Assembly (NCBI RefSeq): GCF_026000775.1
Contig: NZ_AP026830.1
Location: 953,056 to 1,017,055 of the forward strand
Length of the DNA stretch: 64,000 nt
Direction of reading: 5' to 3'
Source: Vulcanisaeta souniana JCM 11219
Lineage (GTDB): Archaea > Thermoproteota > Thermoprotei > Thermoproteales > Thermocladiaceae
The notes below the pieces were generated by a model that was not told the origin of the DNA, did not search any database, and saw only the letters and a list, made by a program, of their open reading frames with translations. Shown one piece after another: positions 51,114-57,453 of the stretch (positions are counted from its first letter, which is position 1; each line of letters opens with the position of its first letter). The position numbers and the translations under genes are program-made.

Positions 51114-51344
51114 ATGGCTAAAAATGGAAAGAGAAGAATTGTAATAGAGATAGATGAGAGTCAATATGAAGCACTAAAAAGGCTTAAGCAAGCGTTTCAT
51201 TCCCGTAGTTGGGCCGACCTTCTTCTAAGGTGCCTGGATAATTCTCTCGTTATTAATGAGATAGTGGAAATGCACAATGACATCAAAGACCTGGGCAGAA
51301 CCATTGATGAACTAGCTAGACTAATCAGGGAGGAGGGGAAGTAA
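51114..51344 (+). CDS. Small ribbon-helix-helix-like protein
   Basis: A 76-aa basic-then-acidic protein. KRRIVIEIDESQYEALKRLKQAFHSRSWADLLLRCL fits a beta strand and two helices as in RHH repressors; the C-terminal ~30 residues are a short coiled coil (NEIVEMHNDIKDLGRTIDELARLIREE). It lies between tmcA and the operon starting at 51427. It may control that operon, but this is inferred from position only. ATG at 51114 follows a TATA-like TCTTTATTTATT. Confidence 0.65.
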   Translation: MAKNGKRRIVIEIDESQYEALKRLKQAFHSRSWADLLLRCLDNSLVINEIVEMHNDIKDLGRTIDELARLIREEGK

Positions 51345-51426: not shown

Positions 51427-51822
51427 ATGCTAATAATGCTATTCAGCACGATTGAGGAAGCTATTAATAAATTAAGTACTTTCAAGGAACAATTAATACA
51501 ATTAAAAGGAAAATATGATAAGATTAATGAGGCACTAAGGGCAAATGCCAATATCGAGGAGATAATCATGAAATCAGGACCTCAACCATCACATAGGGTA
51601 ATAATTATGACAACAATACCATATCCAATAAACATGCATATTGCGCCCCACTATGCATGGTTGGTGAATAAAATAAGCGCGTTGAATGATAATATTAGTT
51701 ACATAATTAATGAAATTGATAAAGTAAATAACTACTTAAATAATACCAAGTTTAGAGATGCTTCAGTGGCAATAATTATTGATCATGAAAGTAAGAAGAC
51801 GAAGTTGGTGATCATGCCATGA
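51427..51822 (+). CDS. Helix-hairpin array protein 1 (unknown system)
   Basis: 131 aa, soluble, no signal. Layout: helix ~8-45 (STIEEAINKLSTFKEQLIQL), strand pair ~56-75 (HRVIIMTTIPYPINMHI), long helix ~78-112, strand pair ~117-131 ending KTKLVIMP. The same order recurs in the following genes, although identity is low. AATAAATATAAC near 51393-51404 lies ~26 nt from ATG 51427, so this gene opens the operon. Its stop overlaps the next start by four bases (ATGA). No known family; function unknown. Confidence 0.72.
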   Translation: MLIMLFSTIEEAINKLSTFKEQLIQLKGKYDKINEALRANANIEEIIMKSGPQPSHRVIIMTTIPYPINMHIAPHYAWLVNKISALNDNISYIINEIDKVNNYLNNTKFRDASVAIIIDHESKKTKLVIMP

Positions 51823-52211
51823 CCGCCAACGTAGATATTAGTATTAATGTGGATGAGCTATATAGAAGAATATTAGAAGGTAAAAAGAAACTTGTTGAGT
51901 ATGTCAAGAACCTATCCCTTGTTTATGACAAGGCAAATGAACAACTAGACCTACCTGATAAAAGTGAAAAGATGATCATTGATATATCTAATTCAGTACC
52001 GATAGTAATATACAAGGAACCATCTAAGGAGGCATACAGGGAATTATTCTCCAGGGCATTACTATTCCTTAAGCTGGAATATGCGATTTACGAATCCATT
52101 GAGACCAGGTTAGGTAAACTTAAAGGGCTAGGTTTTAAAGCAATGGTTAGGTACTTCAGTGACGTACCCTCCGTGGTGGTGATAAACCTTGATAGTGCTA
52201 AGGAGCAGTAA
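51819..52211 (+). CDS. Helix-hairpin array protein 2 (unknown system)
   Basis: 130 aa. Helix ~9-47, strand pair ~52-66 (MIIDISNSVPIVIYKEP), helix ~69-104, strand pair ~108-125 (MVRYFSDVPSVVVINLD). This is the same layout as protein 1, and the hairpin turn SNSVP/SDVP matches turns in proteins 4, 5 and 6. It is soluble and lacks cysteine. Start overlaps the previous stop by four bases, which implies translational coupling. Function unknown. Confidence 0.72.
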   Translation: MTANVDISINVDELYRRILEGKKKLVEYVKNLSLVYDKANEQLDLPDKSEKMIIDISNSVPIVIYKEPSKEAYRELFSRALLFLKLEYAIYESIETRLGKLKGLGFKAMVRYFSDVPSVVVINLDSAKEQ

Positions 52212-52215
52212 GTTG

Positions 52216-52830
52216 ATGGATATAGTTGCGGAATTCGGCAATAAGCTCAACGAGGTACTTCGGACTATTGAGGAGAATCATGCGTATAATCCTGATAATG
52301 ATCTTATGAACAGGATAATTAGGGAGTTAAGGAGCAAGGGCGCAGCCACACTGGTCAAGGGTAACGCAAGTATTGTGTCCAAGGTTAATGGTATTGAGGT
52401 GACCTTCGTATTAACGGCTGATGGTTATAAGAATATAATGCGCGATATTGTTAATTACTATACCAATATTTTAATGTCTATTAAGCAAGTACTGGAACTT
52501 ACTAATAAGTTAGGTGTGTCTGATGAATATACAGTGATCATAAGTGATTCAGCCATCGATATCCTGATAGGCTACTCATTACCTGACCTGTCAGAAACTC
52601 CATTACTAAGTATACCAAGTGTTAAGGAGACCATTGAGATACCCAGTGTTTTGAGTAATGTCACTAAGATGACTGCCGATGAGGTTGCCAAGATCATGGT
52701 TCAAATTGATAATGTGATCTCATCATTAGGCAACATCTCAAGTCGCATAGAGACTGTAATTAAGTTGGACGACATTGAATACCCAGAGCCGTTCAAGGTT
52801 ATTGAGAAAAAGGTGGGTGGTGTATCATGA
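52216..52830 (+). CDS. Helix-hairpin array protein 3 (unknown system)
   Basis: About 204 aa from ATG 52216 (the upstream frame to 52189 overlaps the previous gene). Helix ~4-40, strand pair ~54-70 (SIVSKVNGIEVTFVLT), helix ~74-103, strand pair ~108-122 (YTVIISDSAIDILIGYSLP), then a Pro/Ser/Thr-rich linker and another amphipathic helix (~155-195). It is the longest of the plus-strand set, with an extra C-terminal helical part. Stop overlaps the next start by four bases. Function unknown. Confidence 0.7.
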   Translation: MDIVAEFGNKLNEVLRTIEENHAYNPDNDLMNRIIRELRSKGAATLVKGNASIVSKVNGIEVTFVLTADGYKNIMRDIVNYYTNILMSIKQVLELTNKLGVSDEYTVIISDSAIDILIGYSLPDLSETPLLSIPSVKETIEIPSVLSNVTKMTADEVAKIMVQIDNVISSLGNISSRIETVIKLDDIEYPEPFKVIEKKVGGVS

Positions 52831-53231
52831 TCATTGAAATTAAGAAATTTAATTCATTGAATGAATTAATTCAGTCCCTAAAAAACGAGTTAAGCAATTC
52901 GAATGTATTTATGTATATATTAAGGCAGAATTGGAACGAATTACTGGGTTCTGAAAATAACGTTGTTTTAGCCAATGAGATATCTGAAATTATAAAATTT
53001 ATCGATGGTGGTACAGAGGTTTTCTCCCTGAAGTTTATTTACAAATCAGGTACCAACACAAAGAGTAATGTTATTAATGAAGCCGCCGGTTATGAACAGT
53101 TGAAGACCGCAATAATAAAGTCTATAATATACAAGCTGGAAAGTCTCAGTAATATTAACAAGGATAAACCATTAATTGCATTACTCGTAGACTCAATACC
53201 AATAATGATAATAATGCAGGGCTCAGGTTAG
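52827..53231 (+). CDS. Helix-hairpin array protein 4 (unknown system)
   Basis: 134 aa. Short N-terminal strand (MIIEIKKF), helix ~10-30, helix/strand with KFIYKSGTN, helix ~90-105 and a terminal strand pair LIALLVDSIPIMIIMQ. The VDSIP turn matches the ANGIP and DNGMP turns of proteins 5 and 6. It is the last gene of the plus-strand operon and its last four bases overlap the convergent gene at 53228-54100. Function unknown. Confidence 0.7.
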   Translation: MIIEIKKFNSLNELIQSLKNELSNSNVFMYILRQNWNELLGSENNVVLANEISEIIKFIDGGTEVFSLKFIYKSGTNTKSNVINEAAGYEQLKTAIIKSIIYKLESLSNINKDKPLIALLVDSIPIMIIMQGSG

Positions 53232-54100
53232 GTACTTCTATTACGGAGAACTATTAGCACTTTGGGTATTCCGTTGGCATAGAACACCAAGATCTCTGAA
53301 TTATACATGTACTGCGGGATCTCTGGATTATGTGTTAATCGTTCCAGTACATTATCGAACTCCTTAATGTAATTACTCAATATTTGTGAACTTGCTATTA
53401 AATCATTGGCTATTTCCTCGGGCTTTACATAAATTATCAACCTATCTACATACTCGGTCTTAGTCTTGGCTTTTTTCTGTTTCTTGAAGACAGACTCCTC
53501 GCCAACTGCAAAACCTAAGGTCATGGCGTTGTCTTCATACTTCCTAATTCTGGACAGTATAGAGGCTTCCTCATTAATTATCTCCACATTATTCTTAATG
53601 TCCATGTAATTCCTTGAGATGCTTAATATGGCATCTGACCAACTGTCGTAATACTCAGCCCAATTGCCCAGTAGCTCGCTGGTTTTTGAGCTCTGCCTAA
53701 GCGTTTTAATGGATTCATTGATGAGCTTGTCCAAATCCTCTGGTTTAATTTGCTGCCCCCTTTCAGCTTTTAATTTAGGCTTAGCCCTACTGTTTTTTCT
53801 TAATACCTTAGGTTGCCCACTCGTTTTAAGGCCGAATATTGAACGAACCTCTATATTCATGTACTTGCTTACGATTAAGGATATTCCATAACCAATAACA
53901 AAGCCTATTATTGGGAGCAATATGTATCGTATGTTCAGGTATTGGTTAATAACCAGGTTAGGTATTATGTATGGTATTAACATGAGTATTGTGTAAATAC
54001 CCAATAGGGGTATTATTACGGTCAATGGTGGCCTAATTAGGCCTAGTATTATCATTCCAATCATTATTGCAATGATTAATACTGGGATTAGTATTATCAT
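53228..54100 (-). CDS. Helix-hairpin array protein 5 with N-terminal membrane domain
   Basis: 290 aa. About three or four membrane helices lie within the first ~85 residues, followed by a lysine-rich linker (~100-115), a long helical region (~120-230) and the array's ending: strand YVDRLIIYVK, helix ~233-260, and strand pair EILVFYANGIPKVLIVL. So it would tether the array architecture to the membrane with its bulk in the cytoplasm. It follows protein 6 with a four-base overlap. It does not resemble TadC/FlaJ. Function unknown. Confidence 0.72.
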   Translation of the reverse strand: MIILIPVLIIAIMIGMIILGLIRPPLTVIIPLLGIYTILMLIPYIIPNLVINQYLNIRYILLPIIGFVIGYGISLIVSKYMNIEVRSIFGLKTSGQPKVLRKNSRAKPKLKAERGQQIKPEDLDKLINESIKTLRQSSKTSELLGNWAEYYDSWSDAILSISRNYMDIKNNVEIINEEASILSRIRKYEDNAMTLGFAVGEESVFKKQKKAKTKTEYVDRLIIYVKPEEIANDLIASSQILSNYIKEFDNVLERLTHNPEIPQYMYNSEILVFYANGIPKVLIVLRNRST

Positions 54101-54465
54101 GGAACTTCACCCTTTAGTACCAATGATTGTGAAAGCAGTACCCTGTGAGGCATACCGTTATCGAACTCGAGTAGTACCATGCCCGTAAAATTATTATCAT
54201 TAAATTCGCTCTTTATTTCCTCCAGTAATGAGTTTATAGATTCAATCCTTGTATTAATATTATCTAGGATATCCTTAATTTCGGTTATTCTTTCTCTCCT
54301 AATATCTATGTTGTTATCCTTTATTTCAATTACATCTACAAGGGAGCCCTTGTTTATCTCCTCTTCTAGTCTTTTCTTGGCGATCAGTAATTTATTCAGT
54401 TCCTCGCCTAAGTACCTATTCAACGACGTAAGATCTTTAAATCTGAGCAATACTCTCAACTTCAC
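54097..54465 (-). CDS. Helix-hairpin array protein 6 (unknown system)
   Basis: 122 aa. N-terminal strand MKLRVLLRF, helices ~14-40 and ~54-90 predicted to form a coiled coil (INTRIESINSLLEEIKSE), and a terminal strand pair GMVLLEFDNGMPHRVLLSQ. It starts at GTG 54465 inside the last codons of the ATPase gene, preceded by a strong ribosome-binding sequence GGGGGTGA. Its 3' end overlaps protein 5. The coupling to the ATPase is the main link between the array and a secretion motor. Confidence 0.72.
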   Translation of the reverse strand: MKLRVLLRFKDLTSLNRYLGEELNKLLIAKKRLEEEINKGSLVDVIEIKDNNIDIRRERITEIKDILDNINTRIESINSLLEEIKSEFNDNNFTGMVLLEFDNGMPHRVLLSQSLVLKGEVP

Positions 54466-55975
54466 TCACCCCCTTCCCAATTATCTTGTTAATTATCGCA
54501 TCTGGATTTGTGTAGTAGGTCTGTACATACGTGGAGACGTCCTCGAAGTTAAATACGTTGTTTTCAACTAGCCAATTAACAACCTTTGCCCTAGTATCGA
54601 TCTCCCTGAGCAATTCATCAATGTCCTTACCAGTCATGTCACTTATCTGCCTAATTAGGACGCTCTTGTCCACATACGACTCATGGGTATCATTCCTCGG
54701 GTTCCACCTAAATACCGTGTTGAACCTTATCCTATCACCATCCATGTAGACCTCACCAACCTCAGTGACCCTCCTCGTTAACCTACCACCAATCTTAACC
54801 CTCTTAATCATGACGAATATGTTCATGGCAGGTATATAGGCTGGTGGTATGTTCATTGGTGGGCTCATTAACCTATTAACGGCTGCTTCGAAGGATTCAG
54901 CGTGCATCGTGGATATGCCACTGTGTCCCGTGTTTACTGCTTGGAATAGAACATAGGCCTCCTCACCCCTTATCTCGCCCACAATTAGGTAATCAGGCCT
55001 CATTCTGAGCGTAGCCTTGACCAGGTCAAATAACGTGATTTCGTTTATTTTTTCAGAACCGTAGCTCTGCCTAGTGACCAGCCTAACCCAGTTCTTATGC
55101 TGTAGATTTATTTCGGGTACTTCCTCAACCGTTATTATCTTCATGTGTGGTTTGATGAATGTTGCCATGGCATTGAGGAAACTTGTCTTACCAGCACCGG
55201 TAACACCGAGGACTAGGAATGACCTGCCATTATCCAGCATTACCCAGAAGTAACCCGCAATCTCCGGGCTAATGTTTCCGGACTTAACAAGCTCGGTGAA
55301 CGTTAGCGGGTTCTTCCTGAATCTCCTTATTGTAAACGTGGAACCACCCGGCGAGACCTCCTTCCTATATGTAACGGCTATTCTAGAGCCATCAGGTAAT
55401 TGCGCATCAACTATGGGTGTAGCAACAGAGACATGCCTGCCTGATAGGTGTATTAACTTTACGACCAAGTCATCAAGGGCTTGCTCAGTCTTTGGAATTA
55501 TGTTTGTGGGTATTGACTCATACCTCCTGTGAAATACATAAACAGGCCTATCAACGCCATCGCATGAAATATCCTCAATGTTCTCATCCCTCATTAGGGC
55601 ATCTATAGGTCCATAACCGAGCAAGTCCCTCTCTATGTAGTATAGGAATTTGGCGAAGGATGATGGTGGCACATTCCTGAACAACCTCCTATACTTCCCA
55701 ACGATCTTCTTTAATTCGTTAAGAAGATAATTCTTAACATCACCTATCTTAGTTAGTTCCTCGGGCGGTGGTAATTCAAGCATGACTATCCTTGTTAATT
55801 CCCTATAGACCTTCTGTTCCGTTGAATCGAGTTCTATCTCCTCAAGGTGGTACATTACGTCTCCCGTCGTTTCATCCTGAATTATAGTGGCGTAAGCGAA
55901 TGGTTCGTATAATGGGTATCTCTCCAGTTCTTTAAACTGCCCAATGGGTTTTATTAGTTGGAATTCCAGGCTCAT
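54437..55975 (-). CDS. Secretion/pilus ATPase of the VirB11-GspE-FlaI class
   Basis: Hexameric motor ATPase. The N-terminal domain (~1-160) is followed by the core with Walker A GVTGAGKT (265-272), the Asp box region near EEVPEINLQHK (~292-302), Walker B YLIVGE (337-342) and His box GHSGISTMHA (358-367), numbered from GTG 55999. ATG 55975 is taken as start because TATTTTTTAAGG at 56001-56012 is ~27 nt upstream of it. Such motors drive assembly of archaella, pili or DNA transfer with a membrane platform, which is not found here. The 3' end overlaps array protein 6 by 29 bases. Confidence 0.9.
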   Translation of the reverse strand: MSLEFQLIKPIGQFKELERYPLYEPFAYATIIQDETTGDVMYHLEEIELDSTEQKVYRELTRIVMLELPPPEELTKIGDVKNYLLNELKKIVGKYRRLFRNVPPSSFAKFLYYIERDLLGYGPIDALMRDENIEDISCDGVDRPVYVFHRRYESIPTNIIPKTEQALDDLVVKLIHLSGRHVSVATPIVDAQLPDGSRIAVTYRKEVSPGGSTFTIRRFRKNPLTFTELVKSGNISPEIAGYFWVMLDNGRSFLVLGVTGAGKTSFLNAMATFIKPHMKIITVEEVPEINLQHKNWVRLVTRQSYGSEKINEITLFDLVKATLRMRPDYLIVGEIRGEEAYVLFQAVNTGHSGISTMHAESFEAAVNRLMSPPMNIPPAYIPAMNIFVMIKRVKIGGRLTRRVTEVGEVYMDGDRIRFNTVFRWNPRNDTHESYVDKSVLIRQISDMTGKDIDELLREIDTRAKVVNWLVENNVFNFEDVSTYVQTYYTNPDAIINKIIGKGVSEVESIAQI

Positions 55976-56000
55976 TTTCAATTTATTAAATAAATACACC

Positions 56001-56031: not shown

Positions 56032-57453
56032 GTGTCTCTTCATGATGAGAAACCTTTATATAATTATTTTGTAAGTATCATGGTAATGATTACTAATAAA
56101 TGGGTATTATTTATTGCGATTCCATTGATTATTTTTGCATATATAACATTAACTACATATGCAGATACAATGTACGGACCAGCACCCATACCCACAGTAT
56201 ACACGGTATACTCAATAAGTATGAACCTCACTGACTCAAGGCCAACGACTCAGACCTTAACGAACATTTCCAGTAATTACCCACTTACCTATCGCGAGGA
56301 TTCATTGGTAGTGAACACAACGCCAGTGTGGATAGCAACCGCCGGCCAGGAATTCACACTATACATTACGAATGCGTCAGACACGACGGCGCAACAGGAA
56401 ATTACACTTAATTCAACAGCCATTGCCAATGGTACTGGCGGTATTAAATGGACAATTAGGGTTCCATGGAGCCTACTAAGCCCACAACCTGTTTATGCTA
56501 ATTGGTATGTGATAATAACGGAGAACATAGACGGTATAAATTATGTGAGTTTCACCTTTGAAACAGCCAATGAAAGCATAATCCAACTACTGACGGAATT
56601 AAGTAATGTTGGCGGCTACTTAATGTCAAACAACGGGAAACCATACCACCTATGGAATTACTACAATGGTTTTAACCCAACAACCCAAAGCGTTAGTAGA
56701 TACTATGAGGTGGGGTTACCTGGGTTAAGTGTATACTATGCGTGGGTTGGTCAGGGCGAGAACGCAAGTTCATGGCAAAGCCAGGGATTCCAAGAAGTAC
56801 TTAATGTGTTTAGGTATGTGTTTATTGAATACGTTAACTCAACAATCATAGAGAATGCTGAACTTACCTATAATGCATCAATAGGTGAGTTAACGAATTA
56901 TGGATATTCCATATACCAAAGGCCAAACCTAATACCCTATGGACCCATAGTATACCCATCACCAGTACTCCTACTTCCAAATGGTACGATCATAAACCCA
57001 ACATGCTTACCAAACACATATTACCTGCTTGAGACTAATTACGTGACGTCATTTGGCTCTTCAATAACCGTTTATGAAACAGAGAATAATCCAATGGGCT
57101 TATACATGCTTAACGGTTCACTGTTATTTGGTGGATACCTGCAGGCCTATGACTTCTTCAACAAATCTATGGTACCAATAACGCCAGTGCAGTACCTATT
57201 ACCGGCATACCAATCACAGGTAACTAAATTAACCTCATGCAAAATCCAGGTATTTAGCAATGAAGATAAACCATTAGCTAATGCTAATAATGCCCTAAGC
57301 GTAAATGGAACTGTCATAATAACCAACAATACAAGGAATCAAAATGCACAATTACAGGGGCAATACGGTCATGAAGGTAATGAAACATCCAAGAAATTAC
57401 CTTACTACATTGTGGGTAAGTCCTTCATTGGATTAAGGGTTACGCCTCAGTGA
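56032..57453 (+). CDS. Large exported single-anchor protein beside the secretion ATPase
   Basis: 473 aa with one N-terminal membrane helix (about residues 24-42, WVLFIAIPLIIFAYITLTTYA) and a ~425-residue external part rich in Asn, Tyr and Thr, with many N-x-S/T sequons and few cysteines. Residues ~95-180 look like an immunoglobulin-like beta domain. No family recognised; the sequence lacks a type III (prepilin-like) signal with a processing site before the hydrophobic stretch. Start is GTG 56032; ATG 56080 is the alternative. It may be a surface component of the neighbouring system. Confidence 0.7.
   Translation: MSLHDEKPLYNYFVSIMVMITNKWVLFIAIPLIIFAYITLTTYADTMYGPAPIPTVYTVYSISMNLTDSRPTTQTLTNISSNYPLTYREDSLVVNTTPVWIATAGQEFTLYITNASDTTAQQEITLNSTAIANGTGGIKWTIRVPWSLLSPQPVYANWYVIITENIDGINYVSFTFETANESIIQLLTELSNVGGYLMSNNGKPYHLWNYYNGFNPTTQSVSRYYEVGLPGLSVYYAWVGQGENASSWQSQGFQEVLNVFRYVFIEYVNSTIIENAELTYNASIGELTNYGYSIYQRPNLIPYGPIVYPSPVLLLPNGTIINPTCLPNTYYLLETNYVTSFGSSITVYETENNPMGLYMLNGSLLFGGYLQAYDFFNKSMVPITPVQYLLPAYQSQVTKLTSCKIQVFSNEDKPLANANNALSVNGTVIITNNTRNQNAQLQGQYGHEGNETSKKLPYYIVGKSFIGLRVTPQ

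Follow-up and report, generated by a model that had tools for sequence, protein, structure and literature searches.

Diversity is extreme among the archaeal type IV pilus systems of the Thermoproteales, in which many components on the cytoplasmic side are uncharacterised, according to the accessible part of the survey by Makarova et al. 2016 (PMC4858521), to which all our statements on that source refer. The survey lists a type IV pilus ATPase of Vulcanisaeta that is flanked by a cytoplasmic and a membrane protein, and suggests that this ATPase serves pilins of another locus. We analyzed a stretch of 64,000 nucleotides (the window, G000:C1:953056-1017055) from a Vulcanisaeta genome, G000, which consists of a single contig, C1, of 2.43 Mb. 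The window encodes a pilus-type ATPase and, next to it, six accessory proteins, p1 to p6, and the surveyed entry is very probably this ATPase with p6 and p5. The Thermoproteales systems of subclades 4A/4E in the survey resemble our locus in their ATPase class, in the adjoining cytoplasmic and membrane protein, and in a platform and pilins possibly encoded elsewhere, and Vulcanisaeta is named explicitly there. In contrast, the accessible part makes no mention of paralogy between the cytoplasmic and membrane proteins, of the p1-p4 set, of the family that we call U, or of a specific orphan platform. An earlier reading of the bare DNA (the original prediction) had suggested an undescribed machine, which is too strong in view of the surveyed entry; what we describe is an arrangement that is new in part but belongs to a known kind of system. 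Its new elements are the paralogy of six members and U as a family found across the class.

The archaellum motor (ArlI/ArlJ with ArlX or ArlCDE) offers a further comparison. The window ATPase is of the FlaI/ArlI type, and an anchored plus soluble cytoplasmic accessory layer would fill the role of ArlX/ArlCDE, which are thought to act as a cytoplasmic scaffold or adaptor at the archaellum motor (PMC8978795). Unlike an archaellum locus, the genes neighbouring the ATPase include none for ArlH, ArlJ or ArlF/G (ArlH/F/G were sought among these neighbours only), the ATPase scores under the FlaI cut-off, and p1-p6 match no Pfam family, prefoldin included, and no NCBIfam family above cut-off. The Ups pilus and bindosome of Sulfolobales (UpsF, BasE/BasF) show some likeness to two of the proteins considered here: the ATPase matches BasE, and a platform-type protein encoded elsewhere in G000 has UpsF (89 bits) and BasF (87 bits) as its only NCBIfam matches. 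All of these scores, however, lie far below the family cut-offs. We know of no counterparts of p1-p6 in the Ups and bindosome systems.

Relatedness of p1-p6 and the U family

We interrogated the ancestry of p1-p6 by profile-profile comparison, in which each E-value refers to a single comparison. Using genus-only profiles, a link of p4 and p6 is suggested at 47%, and a p5/p6 relationship via homologs from g4 (g2, g3 and g4 denote other genera of the same family as Vulcanisaeta). With these profiles p1, p2 and p3 remain unlinked to the rest, and their link is seen after adding the g4 orthologs and U. The U profile, seeded with p4 and two relatives, matches in 68 of 81 Thermoproteia genomes; the protein has ~145 amino acids (aa) and the same layout as p1-p6, and is usually present in one copy. 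G000 carries a U copy at C1:207154-207594 (L256:7154-7594) besides p4. With g4 orthologs added, the matches of p1-p6 to U (Table 1) span 93-137 columns, and those of p1, p2 and p3 are lower when query and template are swapped (3.0%, 86.5% and 34.4%, respectively).

As controls, 25 unrelated conserved families reach at most 5.2% against U, over 27 columns, and reversed profiles reach at most 24.9%. All six proteins outscore these 25 families against one profile, indicating that their likeness is not due to chance. In single-sequence mode, p6 and p4 are the top two among 39 window genes compared with U. On this profile evidence, we regard the homology of p2, p4, the C-terminal domain of p5 and p6 as established and that of p3 as probable. 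For p1 it is likely but tentative, the most tentative of the six because swapping query and template lowers its figure. Homology, which the original prediction had offered as a hypothesis, is thus borne out in these grades, with matches to U well above the controls, though weaker for p3 and p1. A p6 profile searched across 300 genomes of the phylum gave clear matches in Vulcanisaeta and g4 only.

The U gene often lies beside a CCA-adding-enzyme-like or sugar-phosphate synthase-type gene; elsewhere in the class its neighbours are undecaprenyl-diphosphate-synthase-like genes or genes for secreted proteins. Its position near a pilin operon in G038 was considered as a functional link and dropped: the sugar-phosphate synthase-type gene is its neighbour in several genomes, and in G041 U and the pilins are on different contigs.

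The ATPase and its candidate platform and pilins

The ATPase scores 121 bits against PF00437 (cut-off 24.9), and its translation contains an intact Walker A motif (GVTGAGKT). Against the NCBIfam FlaI model (NF058587) it scores 388 bits and does not reach the equivalog cut-off of 550, and its nearest solved structure is that of an archaeal type II secretion ATPase (2oap, E 4.5e-102). In the ATPase tree, it forms one group with those of G037 and G009, with support 100.

The platform family PF00482 (FlaJ/TadC) has no match in the window, and its matches in G000 all lie elsewhere. Of the platforms above cut-off, those at 777 kb and 1059 kb adjoin ATPases of their own, whereas the platform at 1.709 Mb is alone in having no ATPase nearby. 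This orphan FlaJ/TadC-type protein of 619 aa (G000:C1:1708770-1710626) is encoded ~0.7 Mb from the ATPase locus. Seven other PF00437 ATPases are encoded in G000, all with a multi-transmembrane (multi-TM) gene nearby except the PIN-domain one. We then compared occurrence in 43 genomes that are at least 90% complete and at most 5% contaminated, with the ATPase type assigned from identity, neighbouring genes and, for sampled sequences, position in the tree (in G026, from a fragment). The window-type ATPase and the orphan-type platform occur together in 24 genomes and are jointly missing from 19, with no discordant genome, in a sample whose species are not independent. In outgroups (G005, G008, G014-G016, G033 and others) the two genes lie next to each other, in G037 and G009 they share one locus, and the main groups of the ATPase tree reappear in the platform tree. 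Judging from elimination and co-occurrence, the orphan protein is probably the platform of the window ATPase.

To look for pilins, we used the profile of a 403-aa pilin-like protein encoded 3' of ATPase and platform in f6/f10 genomes. It matches G000:C1:2187089 (E 2.7e-9) and has matches in all four Vulcanisaeta genomes searched, in g2 and in g4. The G000 match belongs to a prepilin-like operon (G000:C1:2187023-2194076), ~1.2 Mb from the ATPase locus, whose five genes encode proteins of 501, 728, 596, 250 and 280 aa. All five are single-TM secreted proteins, the hydrophobic helix lying at the N terminus. The operon is conserved in Vulcanisaeta, in g2 and, as far as its contigs extend, in g4. 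Its products may be prepilins, making it a candidate substrate set for the window ATPase. The original prediction had seen neither platform nor prepilins; none is present at the locus, and candidates for both are encoded elsewhere in the same genome, so that a machine lacking them is not borne out.

A MinD/ParA-like ATPase gene and a gene for a small TM protein adjoin the orphan platform gene in Vulcanisaeta and g4 (L123:10146-11356, L129:7273-8344). Directly beside the window-type ATPase, g4 encodes a further ATPase of the PF00437 type together with a TadC-like protein (L069:1657-3938, L070:12261-14551).

Related loci in other lineages

The loci of G037 and G009 are complete, with prepilin-like genes, a two-domain platform, a protein of 132-138 aa that matches U at 88.5-94.9%, a multi-TM protein and secreted proteins; their large secreted protein, used as query, finds nothing in Vulcanisaeta. 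In f5, f6, f10, f13 and f14 genomes the ATPase lies beside a two-domain platform, followed in f6/f10 by pilin-like genes, and in G005 the sole U copy is directly upstream of ATPase and platform. Pyrobaculum-type loci have an analogous layout, in the order platform, ATPase, a 71-aa protein that starts within the ATPase gene and overlaps its 3' end, and a 170-aa protein with three TM helices; neither of these two proteins matches U by profile, so that the likeness is one of gene order.

Closer to G000, the full set of p1-p6 and the ATPase is kept in order in the same-genus loci examined, with fragments and frameshifts in draft genomes, and the flanking genes p8 and p0 are likewise conserved there. 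Relatives of p5 occur in Vulcanisaeta sp. UBA163, V. distributa JCM 11216 and Vulcanisaeta sp. JCM 16159. In g4, accessory proteins are again encoded beside the ATPase, p6 directly behind it, and a p5 homolog is also present. Thus, the coupling of all six proteins to the ATPase that had been proposed holds for p5 and p6, which are operonic with it and keep their linkage, and the positional tie of p1-p4 is confined to Vulcanisaeta.

Weighing a proposed dispersed pilus-like machine

We consider it reasonably likely that the window encodes two parts of a dispersed type IV pilus-like machine, its motor and its cytoplasmic/membrane accessory module, with the paralogs as a scaffold or adaptor around the motor. 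Most likely, the ATPase would drive pilin assembly through the distant 1.709-Mb platform, as co-occurrence and elimination suggest. The three helices of p5 would hold it in the membrane while its p6-like domain lies on the cytoplasmic side, and p6, made with the ATPase, and p1-p4 may join it via edge strands and paired helices. Topology, operon structure and paralogy point to a hetero-oligomeric scaffold/adaptor around the hexameric ATPase and the platform as the product. Such a scaffold would hold, position or gate the motor, a role comparable to that of ArlX/ArlCDE; we do not claim shared ancestry with them. The case inventories the motor, the candidate platform and pilins, and the accessory set of one probably dispersed Thermoproteales system, and traces apparently unrelated small proteins around a motor to one ancestor, with the gradations given above. 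It also flags a class-wide conserved protein, U, whose role can now be tested.

Several observations speak against such a machine. The pairing of the ATPase with a distant platform and pilins was reached by elimination and co-occurrence. ATPase and platform trees disagree on the deep placement of the Vulcanisaeta group, and a clade uniting the platforms of the Vulcanisaeta family with those of G037/G009 is neither rejected nor demonstrated (p-AU, approximately unbiased test, 0.08). g2 has the window-type ATPase, the platform and the pilin operon without detectable p1-p3, p5 or p6, indicating that the paralog set is not required by every such machine. In g4, p1-p2-p3 form an operon elsewhere, not beside the ATPase, and p4 is at yet another place, apart from both. 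Finally, U is present in f3-family genomes without the window-type ATPase and must therefore have some wider role.

The scattered g4 genes and the presence of U in genomes without this ATPase also favour an alternative in which the pilus system includes only p5 and p6 besides the ATPase, while p1-p4 form a separate operon of U paralogs that has another cytoplasmic job and merely abuts the system in Vulcanisaeta. In keeping with this, p1-p4 lie on the opposite strand with their own promoter side and the ribbon-helix-helix-like p0. However, the tail-to-tail linkage of p1-p4 and p5 is maintained in Vulcanisaeta genomes, p1-p4 are homologous to p5/p6, and outside Vulcanisaeta p1 and p3 are found in g4 only, the other genus with p5/p6. 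We regard this alternative as possible, though hardly probable. A bolder version of the pilus-like machine, which we think rather doubtful, makes U an ancestral protein and a core cytoplasmic partner of pilus-type motors that stayed single-copy in most Thermoproteia and multiplied in Vulcanisaeta into the six paralogs, one of them membrane-anchored. These would surround the hexameric ATPase as a six-part hetero-oligomeric ring, a motor scaffold of a previously undescribed type. If true, such a ring would be a further, separately evolved solution to the scaffold problem that ArlX/ArlCDE solve in archaella.

In line with the original prediction of a secretion or membrane-remodelling machine, an ATPase of pilus origin could instead have come to function in a new device of this kind that has no platform. 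The locus itself, with no platform or prepilin gene and with the multi-TM p5 in the ATPase operon, fits this idea, and the accessible part of PMC4858521 describes clade 4D ATPases that make such repurposing conceivable. The orphan platform, however, accompanies the ATPase in 24 of 24 genomes and is found in 0 of the 19 without it, a prepilin-like operon exists elsewhere in the genome, and the nearest outgroup loci are complete pilus loci, all of which leave a platform-free device improbable.

Predicted fold of the small proteins

AlphaFold2 models were built from shallow alignments for two of the six proteins, p6 and p2 (predicted local distance difference test scores, pLDDT, in Table 1). With strands as E and helices as H, the p6 model reads E4-9 H12-39 E42-49 E52-59 H60-88 E96-102 E105-112 and the p2 model E5-10 H11-41 E51-54 E62-65 H70-101 E107-113 E116-123. 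Both share a strand-helix-hairpin-helix-hairpin topology with two long helices, in agreement with the helix/hairpin layout originally read from the translations and with one addition, the strand before the first helix. Foldseek searches of the PDB with the two models returned no match at E 0.001, and for p6 nothing meaningful. Profiles of p4/U and p5 found nothing among PDB sequences, and U members match no Pfam family above cut-off. The best PDB matches of the p2 model are prefoldin beta subunits (E 0.085, probability 0.99, TM-score 0.48/0.57), and those of p6 to prefoldins are weaker; we rejected prefoldin homology of p2 on account of this weak structural similarity with no significant match. 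That the small proteins are prefoldin-like chaperones or co-chaperones of the machine, as these matches might suggest, is very improbable, since the similarity is that of a generic helix-hairpin-helix shape, p1-p6 have no Pfam prefoldin match, and the window's own coiled-coil prefoldin-like protein, one of the 25 controls, matches U at 1.8%.

Gene map of the locus

Open reading frame coordinates agree with the originally described gene map, including the tail-to-tail meeting of p4 and p5 and the four-base overlaps (p1/p2, p3/p4, p5/p6 and p4/p5), except that p2 and p3 overlap by 23 bp, within which the encoded residues are conserved. All six genes are present, and the description of their products as small does not suit p5 and p3. 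As read earlier, p6 starts inside the ATPase gene, 29 bp within it and behind the ribosome-binding site GGGGGTGA; the congener alignment is compatible with GTG 54465 or the in-frame TTG 54459. The membrane helices noted in p5 are likewise predicted. The true ATPase start is probably ATG 55975, where its congeners begin MSLxFQ. Two flanking genes, p8 and p0, were not part of the originally described set. From its position, p8 is a candidate extracellular component of the system, and p0 is a possible regulator of p1-p4.

Table 1 Features of the ATPase locus (window coordinates; percentages and E-values for U and g4 are from profile-profile comparison)
Feature	Coordinates	Strand	Description	Matches and models
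p0	51114..51344	+	Small protein resembling VapB/ribbon-helix-helix proteins, encoded directly upstream of p1	PF02697 E 0.0012, below cut-off
p1	51427..51822	+	Small accessory protein	g4 ortholog 96.9%, E 1.3e-10; U 38.2%, E 3e-4
p2	51819..52211	+	Small accessory protein	U 92.5%, E 4.8e-7; g4 ortholog 95.8%, E 8e-9; AlphaFold2 pLDDT 84.9
p3	52189..52830	+	Accessory protein, 213 aa, TTG start; common domain and C-terminal extension	g4 ortholog 96.9%, E 1.3e-10; U 45.5%, E 2e-4
p4	52827..53231	+	Small accessory protein, of the six nearest to U	U 98.7%, E 3.5e-16
p5	53228..54100	-	Membrane-anchored accessory protein, 290 aa; three predicted N-terminal TM helices and p6-like domain	g4 homolog 96.8%, E 2.3e-10; C-terminal domain vs U 92.9%, E 3.7e-7
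p6	54097..54465	-	Small cytoplasmic accessory protein starting within the ATPase gene	U 96.5%, E 9e-10; g4 ortholog directly behind ATPase; AlphaFold2 pLDDT 85.6
ATPase	54437..55999	-	Secretion/pilus-assembly ATPase (FlaI/TadA/archaeal GspE class)	PF00437 E 5.8e-35
p8	56032..57453	+	Secreted protein, encoded divergently from the ATPase; start probably at ATG 56080 (signal-peptide-like)	No family match

Apart from this locus, an ATPase gene with a 4-TM partner and a TFIIB-like gene lies at L087:8523-11727, resembling the pilin-less clade 4D systems in the accessible part of Makarova et al. 2016.

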